A stretch of DNA of 64,000 bases from Larsenimonas suaedae (GTDB lineage Bacteria > Pseudomonadota > Gammaproteobacteria > Pseudomonadales > Halomonadaceae): assembly GCF_023712105.1 (NCBI RefSeq), contig NZ_JAMLJI010000001.1, forward strand, positions 62,001 to 126,000, in the 5' to 3' direction. Every line of letters begins with the position of its first letter. Within the stretch, counting starts at the first letter, position 1. The position numbers and the translations under genes are program-made. Under the pieces are notes generated by a model. The model was not told the origin of the DNA. It saw nothing but the letters and a program-made list of their open reading frames with translations, and searched no databases. Below, piece by piece: positions 1 to 61,009 of this stretch.

Positions 1-2207
1 GGCATCTCTTCGAGCAGCTTGTTGTAGCGCTGCAGCGGGTTATCCCGGTTGCCGTCTTCCCATGTGTCCCAGGTCAGCTCGGTCAATCGGCTGCGCAGTG
101 GCGTATCACTTGAAATGGCCTGTGCGATGCTCCGGGCGTCGTCATCCTGCGGCGGGCGATGGCGACGGCCACGCGGGAAGATAATGACCTTGAGCGCGCG
201 GGCCATGGTTCGGTTCGGCAGATTGGCGAGAAACTCGATCAGCGCCTTTTCGGCCAGATAGAACAGGCGCATGAGGCTGAAGTCCAGAAGCGTTCGCTCG
301 CCGTCGACCAGCGTTCGTTCGTCAGCCTGTTTGATGACCATCGATGCCAGATAGAGATTCGACAGCACGTCGCCAAGCCGGGCCGAGAGCATCTCGCGGC
401 GCTTGAGCTGGCTTCCAAGTGAACCCATGGCTGCATCGGCGCACAGGGCGAAGGCCGAGCTCAGGCGGTCGATGGCGCTGACGTGCGGGGCAAGTACAGC
501 GTCGAATTCCCGATGCTTCCGTGAAATCCCAAGGCCCTGGATCAGGCTGCGAGCGGCGTTGCCGGCGACGAACCCGAGGTGGCTGAAGACGGCGCCATCG
601 AAGCCGATCAGGTCGTCCTCATCCTTGGCGGCCAGTTCTTTCAGAACGTAGGGGTGGCAGCGGATGGCGCCCTGGCCAAAGATCATCAGACTTCGGCCCA
701 TGATGTTGGCGCCCTCGACCGTGATCAAGACCGGCGTGGCGGCAAAGGCAAGGCCGATGTAGTTGCGCGGGCCGAGCGTGACGGCGCGGCCGCCGTGGAC
801 GTCCATGGCGTCGATCATGATCTCACGCGCCATTTCGGTCAGATGGGTCTTGAGAATGACCGAGGGCACTGCCGGCTTTACGCCGTGATCGATCATGTTG
901 GCGGTGTGCATCACCGCGGCCTGGGCGATGTAGGCGCGGCTGGCGATTCGGGCCAGCGCTTCCTGAACGCCTTCCATTTCCGCGACCGGCTGATTGAACT
1001 GACGGCGAATGCGGGTGTAGCCGCCGGCGAGGCCGACCATGTAGCGGCCTTCACCGCTGGAGCCTGAGGGCAGGGTAATGCAGCGTCCGATCGAGAGGCA
1101 CTCGACCAGCATGCGCCAGCCCTGGCCGGCCATGTCCGGGCCGCCGATGATCCAGTCAAGCGGGATGAATACGTCCTTGCCGCGGATCGGACCATTCATG
1201 AAGGGGCTGCCGATGGGGTGGTGGCGCCGACCGATCGCCATACCCTCGGTTTCGCGAGGGATAAGGGCGCAGGTGATGCCGATGTCTTCCTGCTCACCGA
1301 GCAGGTGGTCGGGGTCAAACATTCGGAACGCGAGCCCGACGACTGTCGCGATCGGGGCAAGCGTGATCCAGCGCTTGTCGAAGGTAAGGCGAATGCCCAG
1401 GCGTTCTTCGCCGTCGAACAGTTGTCGGCAGACAACACCGACGTCCGGAATGGAGGTCGCATCACTGCCTGCACGGGGCCCGGTCAAGCCAAAGCAGGGA
1501 ATTTCCCGGCCATCGGCCAGGCGGGGCAGGTAGTGATTTTTCTGCTCGTCGGTGCCGTACTTCATCAAGAGTTCGCCTGGACCGAGCGAGTTGGGCACGC
1601 CCACGGTCACCATCAGGGTCTCATCGATCGAGAGCTTTTGAAGCACCGCCGATTGCGCCCGCGCCGAAAAGCCGAGCCCGCCGTACTCCTTGGGAATAAT
1701 CATGCCGAAAAAGCGTTCTTTTTTCAGGTACTCCCAGAGTTCGGGAGGGAGGTCGGCCCGTTCACGTGAAATTTCCCAGGCATTGCACATGCTGGCGGCA
1801 ACCGAGCACTGATTATCCAGAAAAGCCTGCTCGTCATCGGTGAACTCGGGCAGACGCTGTTCGCGAAGCCGCTTCCAGTCGGGTTGTCCACTGAACAGCT
1901 CGCCGTCCCAGAATACGGTTCCAGCTTCGAGCGCAATACGCTCGGTGGGCGATACCCGCGGGGCGACCTGCTTGAACAGGCGGAAAAGGCGAGGGGTCAG
2001 CCAGTGCCGGCGCACGTTCTTGAGCCCGCACACGGCAAGCACCAGACCGATGATCAGCCAGAGCACACCGATGACCCAACAATGAAGGATCAGGGCAAGG
2101 GCACCTGCACCTAAGAAAAGCGCCATCTGGGGTTTGGCACCGAGCTCGCGGGCCATCATCCAGAGACTGAGGCCAAGCGTTGCCACGAAAATGAGGGCGG
2201 TTGTCAT
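1..2207 (-). CDS. fadE: Acyl-CoA dehydrogenase FadE, C-terminus cut by window edge
   Basis: This is the N-terminal 735 or so residues of a FadE-type acyl-CoA dehydrogenase, the FAD enzyme that performs the first oxidation of beta-oxidation. The frame is open from the ATG at 2207 to base 1, so the C-terminus lies outside the window. E. coli FadE has 814 residues. Residues 1-50 contain two hydrophobic segments, as expected for the membrane-anchored long form, followed by a linker with FWDGELFSG and then the dehydrogenase domain (FFGMIIPKEYGGLGFS). An AAGGAG ribosome site lies 6-7 bases before the start. A PsrA-type palindrome sits 20 bases upstream, suggesting fatty-acid-responsive repression. 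The gene is transcribed away from the bet operon, behind that operon's terminator. Confidence 0.9.
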   Translation of the reverse strand, partial: MTTALIFVATLGLSLWMMARELGAKPQMALFLGAGALALILHCWVIGVLWLIIGLVLAVCGLKNVRRHWLTPRLFRLFKQVAPRVSPTERIALEAGTVFWDGELFSGQPDWKRLREQRLPEFTDDEQAFLDNQCSVAASMCNAWEISRERADLPPELWEYLKKERFFGMIIPKEYGGLGFSARAQSAVLQKLSIDETLMVTVGVPNSLGPGELLMKYGTDEQKNHYLPRLADGREIPCFGLTGPRAGSDATSIPDVGVVCRQLFDGEERLGIRLTFDKRWITLAPIATVVGLAFRMFDPDHLLGEQEDIGITCALIPRETEGMAIGRRHHPIGSPFMNGPIRGKDVFIPLDWIIGGPDMAGQGWRMLVECLSIGRCITLPSGSSGEGRYMVGLAGGYTRIRRQFNQPVAEMEGVQEALARIASRAYIAQAAVMHTANMIDHGVKPAVPSVILKTHLTEMAREIMIDAMDVHGGRAVTLGPRNYIGLAFAATPVLITVEGANIMGRSLMIFGQGAIRCHPYVLKELAAKDEDDLIGFDGAVFSHLGFVAGNAARSLIQGLGISRKHREFDAVLAPHVSAIDRLSSAFALCADAAMGSLGSQLKRREMLSARLGDVLSNLYLASMVIKQADERTLVDGERTLLDFSLMRLFYLAEKALIEFLANLPNRTMARALKVIIFPRGRRHRPPQDDDARSIAQAISSDTPLRSRLTELTWDTWEDGNRDNPLQRYNKLLEEM

Positions 2208-58716: not shown

Positions 58717-60153
58717 CTAGGCAAGGCGCTTGCGTTCACTGGACGAGGGAATACCCAGCGCTTCCCTGTATTTGGCCACGGTCCGACGGGCGACCTTGAT
58801 GCCCTGTTGATCAAGAAGTTCCACCAGCTTGGCGTCGGAAAGCGGCTTTCTGGTCGGCTCTTCGCTGACGTATTTCTTGATGCGTGCGCGGATGGCAACT
58901 CCCGAATGAGCATCTCCATCCTGCCCTGTGCCGACCTGGCTTGAAAAGAATAGCTTGAGTTCGACGACTCCGCGCGGTGTGTGCAGGTATTTTTGCGTGG
59001 TAACCCGGGAGATGGTGGATTCATGCATATCCACTGCCTGGGCAATGTCGGCGAGCGTGAGCGGGTTGAGGCCGGCTTCGCCGTGTTCGACGAAGCCGGG
59101 CTGACGCGCAAGGATTTCCTGCCCAACCTTGAGTAAGGTCTCGTTGCGACTGGCGATGCTTTTAAGCAGCCATTTCGCGTCCTGCAGGTGCTGCTTGAGA
59201 AAGGTGTTGTCCTGGCTTTGGTCGGCGCGCTTGATCAGCGCACTGTACTGCGCATTGAGCTGCACTCGAGGCAGGGCATCTTCATTGAGATCGACCCGCC
59301 AGCCTTGTCTGGTGTCGTGGCGCATGATCAGATCCGGAATCACGTAGTGATTGCGTGCGCCGCCGAACCGGCGTCCGGGTTGAGGGTCGAGTGACTGGAT
59401 CGTTTGAATGATCTGCTCGAGCTGCTCATCATCAACGCCCAGTCGACGCTTCAAGCGCTTGTAGTCACCGCCGGCCAGTGCCTCCAGGAACTGGCGAATA
59501 AGCCGCCGCGTCTGGGCAAGCAGTGGCGTGTCGCCAGAGCGTTGATCGAGTTGAAGCAGCAGGCACTCTTGAAGGTCGCGCGCGAATAAGCCACCAGGCT
59601 CACACTGCTGCATCAGCTGCAATGTGCGTTCGAGTTCGTCCTGCTTGAAATTAAGTGTCGGAAAGTGATGGGTGAGCTGCTGACCAAGCTCGTCAAGGGG
59701 CACGCTCAGCCGGCCGGTGTCGTCGAGCGCATCGATCAGGTAGTCGGCGATCAGACGTGACCGGTCATCAAGGTCAATCAGGCGAACCTGGTCTCGAACG
59801 TGGTCCTGAAGCGTAATCTCTAAGCTGTTGCGTTCGATGCCCGGTGCCTCATCCGAGGGCGTCTGAGTGCCCAGGCTTCCGGGGCCAATGTCCTGGTAGG
59901 TATCGCCCCAGTCACTGTCGTGATCGAGGGTGTCCGGGATGCTTTCTGCCCAATCGGCCTCAGGCTCGGGCGAGGCGTCGTGTTCCTCGAACGCTTCCTG
60001 CTGCTCGAGCATGGGGTTGCTTTCGAGGGCCTGCTGAATTTCCTGACGAAGATCGAGCGTAGAGAGCTGCAGCAGGTGGATAGCCTGCTGCAGTTGGGGC
60101 GTCATCGTTAAATGCGCGCCGACTCTGAGCTGCAGTGAAGGTTTCATCGTCAT
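58717..60153 (-). CDS. rpoN: RNA polymerase sigma-54 factor
   Basis: RpoN (478 aa; E. coli 477) directs RNA polymerase to -24/-12 promoters activated by enhancer-binding proteins. The glutamine-rich activator-response region I is at residues 1-50 (TMTPQLQQAIHLLQLS), an acidic region II follows (about 55-110), and the RpoN box ARRTVAKYRE is near residue 458. Start may instead be the second ATG (60147), which gives the usual MKPSLQL. A near-perfect -24/-12 sequence lies upstream (60229-60245). Confidence 0.97.
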   Translation of the reverse strand: MTMKPSLQLRVGAHLTMTPQLQQAIHLLQLSTLDLRQEIQQALESNPMLEQQEAFEEHDASPEPEADWAESIPDTLDHDSDWGDTYQDIGPGSLGTQTPSDEAPGIERNSLEITLQDHVRDQVRLIDLDDRSRLIADYLIDALDDTGRLSVPLDELGQQLTHHFPTLNFKQDELERTLQLMQQCEPGGLFARDLQECLLLQLDQRSGDTPLLAQTRRLIRQFLEALAGGDYKRLKRRLGVDDEQLEQIIQTIQSLDPQPGRRFGGARNHYVIPDLIMRHDTRQGWRVDLNEDALPRVQLNAQYSALIKRADQSQDNTFLKQHLQDAKWLLKSIASRNETLLKVGQEILARQPGFVEHGEAGLNPLTLADIAQAVDMHESTISRVTTQKYLHTPRGVVELKLFFSSQVGTGQDGDAHSGVAIRARIKKYVSEEPTRKPLSDAKLVELLDQQGIKVARRTVAKYREALGIPSSSERKRLA

Positions 60154-60228
60154 ACGGTCTCGGCGTGATCGAATCGGGCGTTACGCTATCGGCGCACTTG
60201 GCGCCTTGCAAGCCAAAGGCGCGCCGCC

Positions 60229-60245
60229 AGCAAGAATCATGCCAA
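60229..60245 (-). promoter_or_regulatory. Near-consensus sigma-54 (-24/-12) promoter upstream of rpoN
   Basis: On the minus strand the 17 bases TTGGCATGATTCTTGCT match the sigma-54 consensus TTGGCACG-N4-TTGCT at every fixed base except one C to T. The GG and GC pairs are separated by exactly 10 bases. Transcription would start near 60218, 65 bases before rpoN, in the gap after lptB. Function is inferred. Confidence 0.65.
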
Positions 60246-60274
60246 AAACTCAAGGGTGCTGTCGATGCGTTGGA

Positions 60275-61009
60275 TCAAAGCTTGAATTCGTGGCCCAGGT
60301 AGACATCACGCACATGTTGATTGGCCAGTATGGCCTGGGCGTCGCCTTCAGCGATGATCTGACCGTCGCCCACGATGTAGGCGTTGTCGCAGATATCGAG
60401 GGTTTCACGCACGTTGTGGTCAGTGATCAAGACGCCAATACCGCGCGCCTTCAGCTGGCGGATGATGCTTTTGATGTCGCCAACCGAGATCGGATCGACG
60501 CCTGCAAAGGGTTCGTCGAGCAGGATGAAGTCGGGCTCTGTGGCAAGCGCTCGCGCGATCTCGACCCGGCGACGTTCGCCGCCGGAGAGGGCCATGCCCA
60601 TGTTGTCCCGAATGTGGGTGACGTTGAACTCGTTCAGAAGTTCTTCAAGACGAGCGAGACGTGCCTTGCGATCCAGGTCCTTGCGGGTTTCAAGAATGGC
60701 CAGAATATTGTTGGCAACGCTCAGCTTTCGAAAGATCGAGGCTTCCTGCGGTAGATAACCGATGCCTGCCCGGGCGCGCTTGTGCATCGCGAGCCGGGAG
60801 AGGTCATGGTCATCAATGGCGATGGTCCCGGCGTCGGATTGGATCAGGCCGACGATCATATAAAACGAGGTCGTTTTACCCGCGCCATTGGGGCCAAGCA
60901 GACCGACGATTTCGCCCTGAGAGATCGACATGCTGATGTCGTGCACGACGCGGCGGCCCTTGAAGCTTTTCGCAAGGTTGGCCACGGAAAGGGTTTTTAA
61001 GCTGCTCAC
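60275..61009 (-). CDS. lptB: LPS export ATPase LptB
   Basis: LptB (244 aa) is the ATPase of the LptB2FGC complex that extracts LPS from the inner membrane. It has Walker A GPNGAGKT (about residues 39-46), Q-loop YLPQEASIF, signature LSGGERRR and Walker [12 protein letters not shown]. It overlaps lptA by four bases (ATGA) and is the last lpt gene before rpoN, the conserved order. Confidence 0.97.

Follow-up and report, generated by a model that had tools for sequence, protein, structure and literature searches.

A conserved candidate sigma-54 site beside a sigma-70-type promoter upstream of rpoN in Larsenimonas suaedae and other Halomonadaceae

Introduction

Is rpoN, the gene for sigma-54, placed under the control of its own product? 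The question is raised by a -24/-12-like sequence in the lptB-rpoN gap of Larsenimonas suaedae, described from a 64,000-nucleotide stretch of its genome (hereafter the window, in whose coordinates all positions are given). The level of sigma-54 in the cell is often regarded as constant. That a self-binding site has been kept next to the housekeeping promoter throughout a family suggests feedback on this level, and with such feedback sigma-54, known as an activator-dependent factor, would also be a repressor.

The rpoN locus and its predicted sigma-54 site

The features of the locus are as follows, all on the minus strand:

58717-60153, minus: rpoN, encoding sigma-54, 478 aa, intact (Sigma54 AID, CBD and DBD domains; NF004595 above cut-off)
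60154-60274, minus: lptB-rpoN gap, 121 bp, with both promoter elements inside
60183-60188, minus: sigma-70-type -10 hexamer TAGCGT (predicted start ~60176, leader ~22 nt)
60206-60211, minus: sigma-70-type -35 hexamer TTGCAA (spacer 17 here; promoter type present in 78/79 family loci)
60245-60229, minus: predicted sigma-54 -24/-12 site TTGGCATGATTCTTGCT (predicted start ~60218; from sequence and family conservation)
60275-61009, minus: lptB, upstream neighbour of rpoN on the same strand (TIGR04406 LPS_export_lptB above cut-off)

The predicted site thus lies directly 5' of an intact rpoN and on the same strand, the product of which matches all three Pfam sigma-54 domains and is 97% identical to the RpoN of Larsenimonas salina, the nearest named relative. 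Its last base is 76 bp from the rpoN ATG (60153); it departs from TTGGCACG-N4-TTGCT by a single C to T, and the spacing from GG to GC is exactly 10 bases, within the pattern TGGCAY-N5-TTGC. With transcription starting 12 nt past the GC, at 60218, the predicted leader would be 65 nt, predicted sigma-54 leaders ranging from 50 to 106 nt across the family. The earlier note on this DNA had given the same sequence, position, single substitution and spacing, as well as a start at about 60218 and a leader of about 65 bases, and all of these were recovered on the minus strand. Regarding the coding start, two in-frame ATGs are present at the beginning of rpoN (60147-60153, minus strand); translation may start at the ATG at 60147, 6 bases after 60153, with the more usual RpoN N-terminus MKPSLQL. 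A terminator reading of the gap was dropped, as no terminator-like site was found in 60100-60400.

In the window, TTGGCATGATTCTTGCT is the sole match at one mismatch or fewer. At two mismatches or fewer, 11 matches were counted for a chance mean of 14.45, so there is no excess, and TGGCAYRNNNNTTGCW gives 5 matches genome-wide vs. 2 for a reversed-pattern control. Judged from one genome alone, the rpoN site is no more than suggestive.

Conservation of the site across the Halomonadaceae

The comparison was extended to 79 lptB-rpoN loci of the family, near-identical copies from L. salina and the most divergent genera being set apart. The strict motif TGGCAY-N5-TTGC is present in the gap of 76 of these 79 loci, vs. 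a mean of 0.12 loci in dinucleotide shuffles of the same gaps (2/79 at most) and no match on their opposite strand. These 76 loci are related by descent and hence do not amount to 76 independent events. Around the site, the flanking columns average 0.14 bits, and the length of the lptB-rpoN gap varies from 104 to 411 bp among the loci with the site; because the flanks have diverged and the spacings shift, the site was evidently retained while its surroundings changed. In addition, columns lying outside the search pattern fit the sigma-54 consensus: TGGCAY is followed by G in 63/76 loci, and TTGC by A or T in 73/76. The presence of the motif upstream of rpoN in relatives, which the earlier note had proposed as a check and whose absence from close relatives it had counted towards refutation, is thus borne out well beyond the shuffled expectation. 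This conservation strongly supports the Larsenimonas site as a genuine sigma-54 -24/-12 site of rpoN's own. Chance occurrence or unselected inheritance of the motif was rejected on the strength of its conservation amid diverged flanks.

Among the divergent genera set apart, g3 and g22 keep the site, and no sigma-54 site was found in the gap of g5 (about 20 bp long) and g24. Additional loci fetched later agree, bar one loss (L184). In all, the strict site is gone in L062, L064, L088 and L184. Of note, the loci where the sigma-54 site is lost or lacking (L062, L064, L184 and L068-L072) include some from small genomes and some with gaps of only 19-45 bp.

An adjacent sigma-70-type promoter

Directly downstream of the sigma-54 site stands a promoter-like element, TTGCAA-N17-TAGCGT, which the earlier note had overlooked. 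Counting against it, its -10 hexamer matches TATAAT poorly and is absent from the list returned by a simple promoter scan. The same type of promoter, mostly TTGCAN and TANNNT with a spacer of 17 or 18, is found in 78/79 family loci. When a stricter form (TTGYMN-TANNGT) was tried with spacers from 13 to 21, it matched only at 17 (66 loci) and 18 (6 loci), the figure for shuffles being 0.12. The element persists in the four loci devoid of the strict sigma-54 site (L062, L064, L088 and L184); because it is kept where that site is lost, this sigma-70-type promoter is probably the main promoter of rpoN.

From the predicted sigma-54 start to the predicted sigma-70 start, the distance is 26-46 bp in every locus, however much the length of the lptB-rpoN gap varies; it clusters at 26, 32-36 and 44-46 bp, and is about 42 bp in Larsenimonas. 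Two loci scored at 64 bp have at 46 a further site that starts with CGGC. No clean pattern of helical phasing emerged from these inter-promoter distances and their clusters.

How the site may act on rpoN

The reading preferred here is negative autoregulation, in which rpoN is transcribed by a sigma-70 polymerase and its expression is lowered through competition from sigma-54 holoenzyme sitting at the upstream site; we hold it to be somewhat more probable than the other readings taken together. The sigma-54 holoenzyme forms closed complexes that await an activator. Basal expression of rpoN would be supplied by the sigma-70-type promoter (start ~60176). Once sigma-54 is plentiful, its holoenzyme would occupy the upstream site as a closed complex, unable to melt DNA alone, and this idle complex would impede the binding of sigma-70 polymerase at a promoter whose start is some 42 bp away, whereby the level of the rpoN product would become self-limiting. 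Such hindrance is expected because starts 26-46 bp apart hardly allow two polymerases, the sigma-54 site falling within the likely reach of sigma-70 polymerase on rpoN. In Larsenimonas, occlusion may be partial, the sigma-54 site being located upstream of the -35 hexamer and not on top of it. What the comparison shows is the sequence and its conservation, the second promoter-like element and the geometry of the two; what we infer is threefold, namely that sigma-54 binds the site, that this binding represses, and that the site is not normally switched on by a dedicated activator. The earlier note had proposed autoregulation and left its sign open; the part concerning a sigma-54 site of rpoN's own is strongly supported, with 76/79 loci behind it, and the anatomy of the gap favours the negative, closed-complex version.

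The opposite sign, positive autoregulation, would have an enhancer-binding protein (NtrC and GlrR being general candidates) fire the sigma-54 promoter under some condition and add a longer rpoN transcript to that from the sigma-70 promoter. The near-consensus site, its exact spacing and a plausible leader of 65 nt, inside the family range, are all compatible with a working promoter; the genome has genes for four clear enhancer-binding proteins, namely GlrR, NtrC and NorR (NCBIfam models) plus one beside type VI secretion genes, and sites of like quality precede hcp and hmp, which are likely activated sigma-54 targets. Activator sites may be degenerate, absent or situated inside lptB. However, palindromes for NtrC, GlrR and NorR (GTCA-N3-TGAC), which can be degenerate, were each found in 0/79 loci within 450 bp upstream of rpoN, no 7-mer upstream of the site is common to more than 8/75 loci, and activation does not require the constant nearness to a sigma-70 promoter. 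A looser GT-N7-AC pattern matches 78/79 loci and is uninformative, and lptB codons, inspected for constraint that an activator site might have left, gave no clear signal, being too few. On this evidence, activation is rather unlikely. Negative autoregulation is preferred because the two promoters are close and no conserved activator palindrome was found in the 79 loci.

The two modes could also be combined, the site repressing the sigma-70 promoter as long as no activator is active and switching to sigma-54 transcription when one is. Both elements are indeed conserved together and the sequence is compatible with activation, but, as for activation, no conserved activator site was found in the 79 loci (7-mers in 8/75 loci at most), and we consider this dual control quite improbable. 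Lastly, the motif might be bound by some other regulator, or be a functionless sequence passed on by descent; its half-elements 12 bp apart could fit a dimeric regulator; against this, the motif is asymmetric and directional (0 opposite-strand matches), its unsearched columns fit the sigma-54 consensus and its flanks hold only 0.14 bits, and we give this reading very little credence. The order of preference is thus negative autoregulation, then activation, then both, then something else.

Tandem sites in other genera

Larsenimonas rpoN has a single sigma-54 site. Nine other genera, with 18 of the 76 loci between them, have an additional sigma-54-like site upstream of the first at an offset of exactly 18 bp, and no other offset occurs in more than three loci; the loci with the 18-bp tandem before rpoN are L012-L014, L018-L021, L025, L026, L029, L030, L034, L048, L049, L078, L083, L089, L095 and L097. 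When 275 family genomes were searched for two such sites separated by any gap of 0-14 bases, 30 matches were obtained, 26 of them with the 18-bp shift and every one of these upstream of rpoN (18 placed there by position and 8 by fetching the locus). The remaining four are repeats of other periods and do not lie at rpoN. One could go further and view the whole arrangement in Halomonadaceae as a dedicated self-titration operator that sets the sigma-54 level. Its one or two overlapping -24/-12 sites would then be less a promoter than a place where idle sigma-54 holoenzyme can settle, and the doubled site would act as a dose sensor particular to rpoN, since the 18-bp tandem occurs only there in the 275 genomes; this proposal is speculative and, in our opinion, unlikely. 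Loci with no site, with one, or with two 18 bp apart, in front of the same sigma-70 promoter, form a natural series in which the way holoenzyme occupancy tunes a promoter is directly testable.

Other families and known systems

Outside the family, in the same order, a relaxed -24/-12 motif is present in the gap of 24/57 loci (12/30 families), where shuffles give 0.24; as there are 6 on the opposite strand, a few of the 24 may be accidental. Several of these families have the -12 element and the sigma-70 -35 element at one and the same place, and the two promoters overlap or abut in other families too, at different spacings. Closeness of the two predicted promoters is thus recurrent across families, although its geometry differs. 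In one family, the gap site is CAGGCATATAATTTGCT, which contains TATAAT; its LptB is closest to chain 5x5y, which we take to be a Pseudomonas protein, the family then presumably being Pseudomonadaceae. Pseudomonas has the gene order lptB-rpoN like Larsenimonas, with CAGGCATATAATTTGCT in the gap of the presumed Pseudomonas loci. There the -24/-12-like site itself contains TATAAT, whereas the Halomonadaceae site is closer to consensus and stands just upstream of TTGCAN-N17-TANNGT.

The rpoN autoregulation described by Kohler et al. in 1994 in P. putida was reportedly negative. In P. aeruginosa, RpoN was found bound upstream of rpoN in vivo by ChIP-seq (PMC8855297), and for self-regulation of rpoN in Pseudomonas that paper cites Kohler 1994 (P. 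putida). In the distant Rhizobium etli, rpoN1 is cited, in PMC3916325, as negatively autoregulated, which resembles the control proposed here except that this bacterium has two rpoN genes. Regarding competition between holoenzymes, it was demonstrated for sigma-54 and sigma-70 of E. coli at other promoters, in vitro with purified components (Schaefer 2015, PMC4551910), all the repressive sigma-54 sites having a C at -12 (PMC4551910), and sigma-54 repression of a sigma-70 promoter was proposed for pilE in Neisseria (PMC6755734). As at rpoN here, these cases have a -24/-12 site, with C at -12, that a bound sigma-70 polymerase would likely cover; the targets are other genes, whereas the predicted target here is rpoN itself. 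A 2025 survey of sigma-54 regulons reported rpoN as enriched among predicted targets in gamma-proteobacteria, autoregulation being inferred by position-specific matrices (PMC12316311); its main text includes no case from Halomonas or Chromohalobacter, and no mention of an adjacent sigma-70 promoter or the 18-bp tandem was found in the survey. The literature search, confined largely to papers outside subscription, returned no paper joining Halomonas, rpoN, sigma 54 and promoter. The statement in the earlier note that no description existed in this group is thus uncontradicted, though its novelty is lessened by the precedents in Pseudomonas (PMC8855297) and by the inference for gamma-proteobacteria as a class (PMC12316311). 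Self-regulation of rpoN is of a kind already known; what is new, as far as found, is the family-wide composite rpoN promoter and the 18-bp tandem in nine other genera.

Other candidate sigma-54 sites in the genome

Three of the five genome-wide matches to TGGCAYRNNNNTTGCW are at plausible sigma-54 targets: besides rpoN, these are hcp, encoding the type VI secretion tube, with a match 64 bp before the ATG, and hmp, encoding a flavohaemoglobin and located beside norR, with a match 54 bp before the ATG. The other two lie within a coding sequence and between two AraC-type genes, respectively. The small set of activators suggests a small sigma-54 regulon in Larsenimonas. The good -24/-12 sites for hcp and hmp are at 1501-1516 (minus strand) of the extracted loci L003 and L005 of this genome, and the good match between the divergent AraC-type regulator genes is at 1501-1516 (minus strand) of L004, also from this genome. 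The contig with hcp also carries, some 20 kb away, the gene for the type VI-linked enhancer-binding protein (L164).
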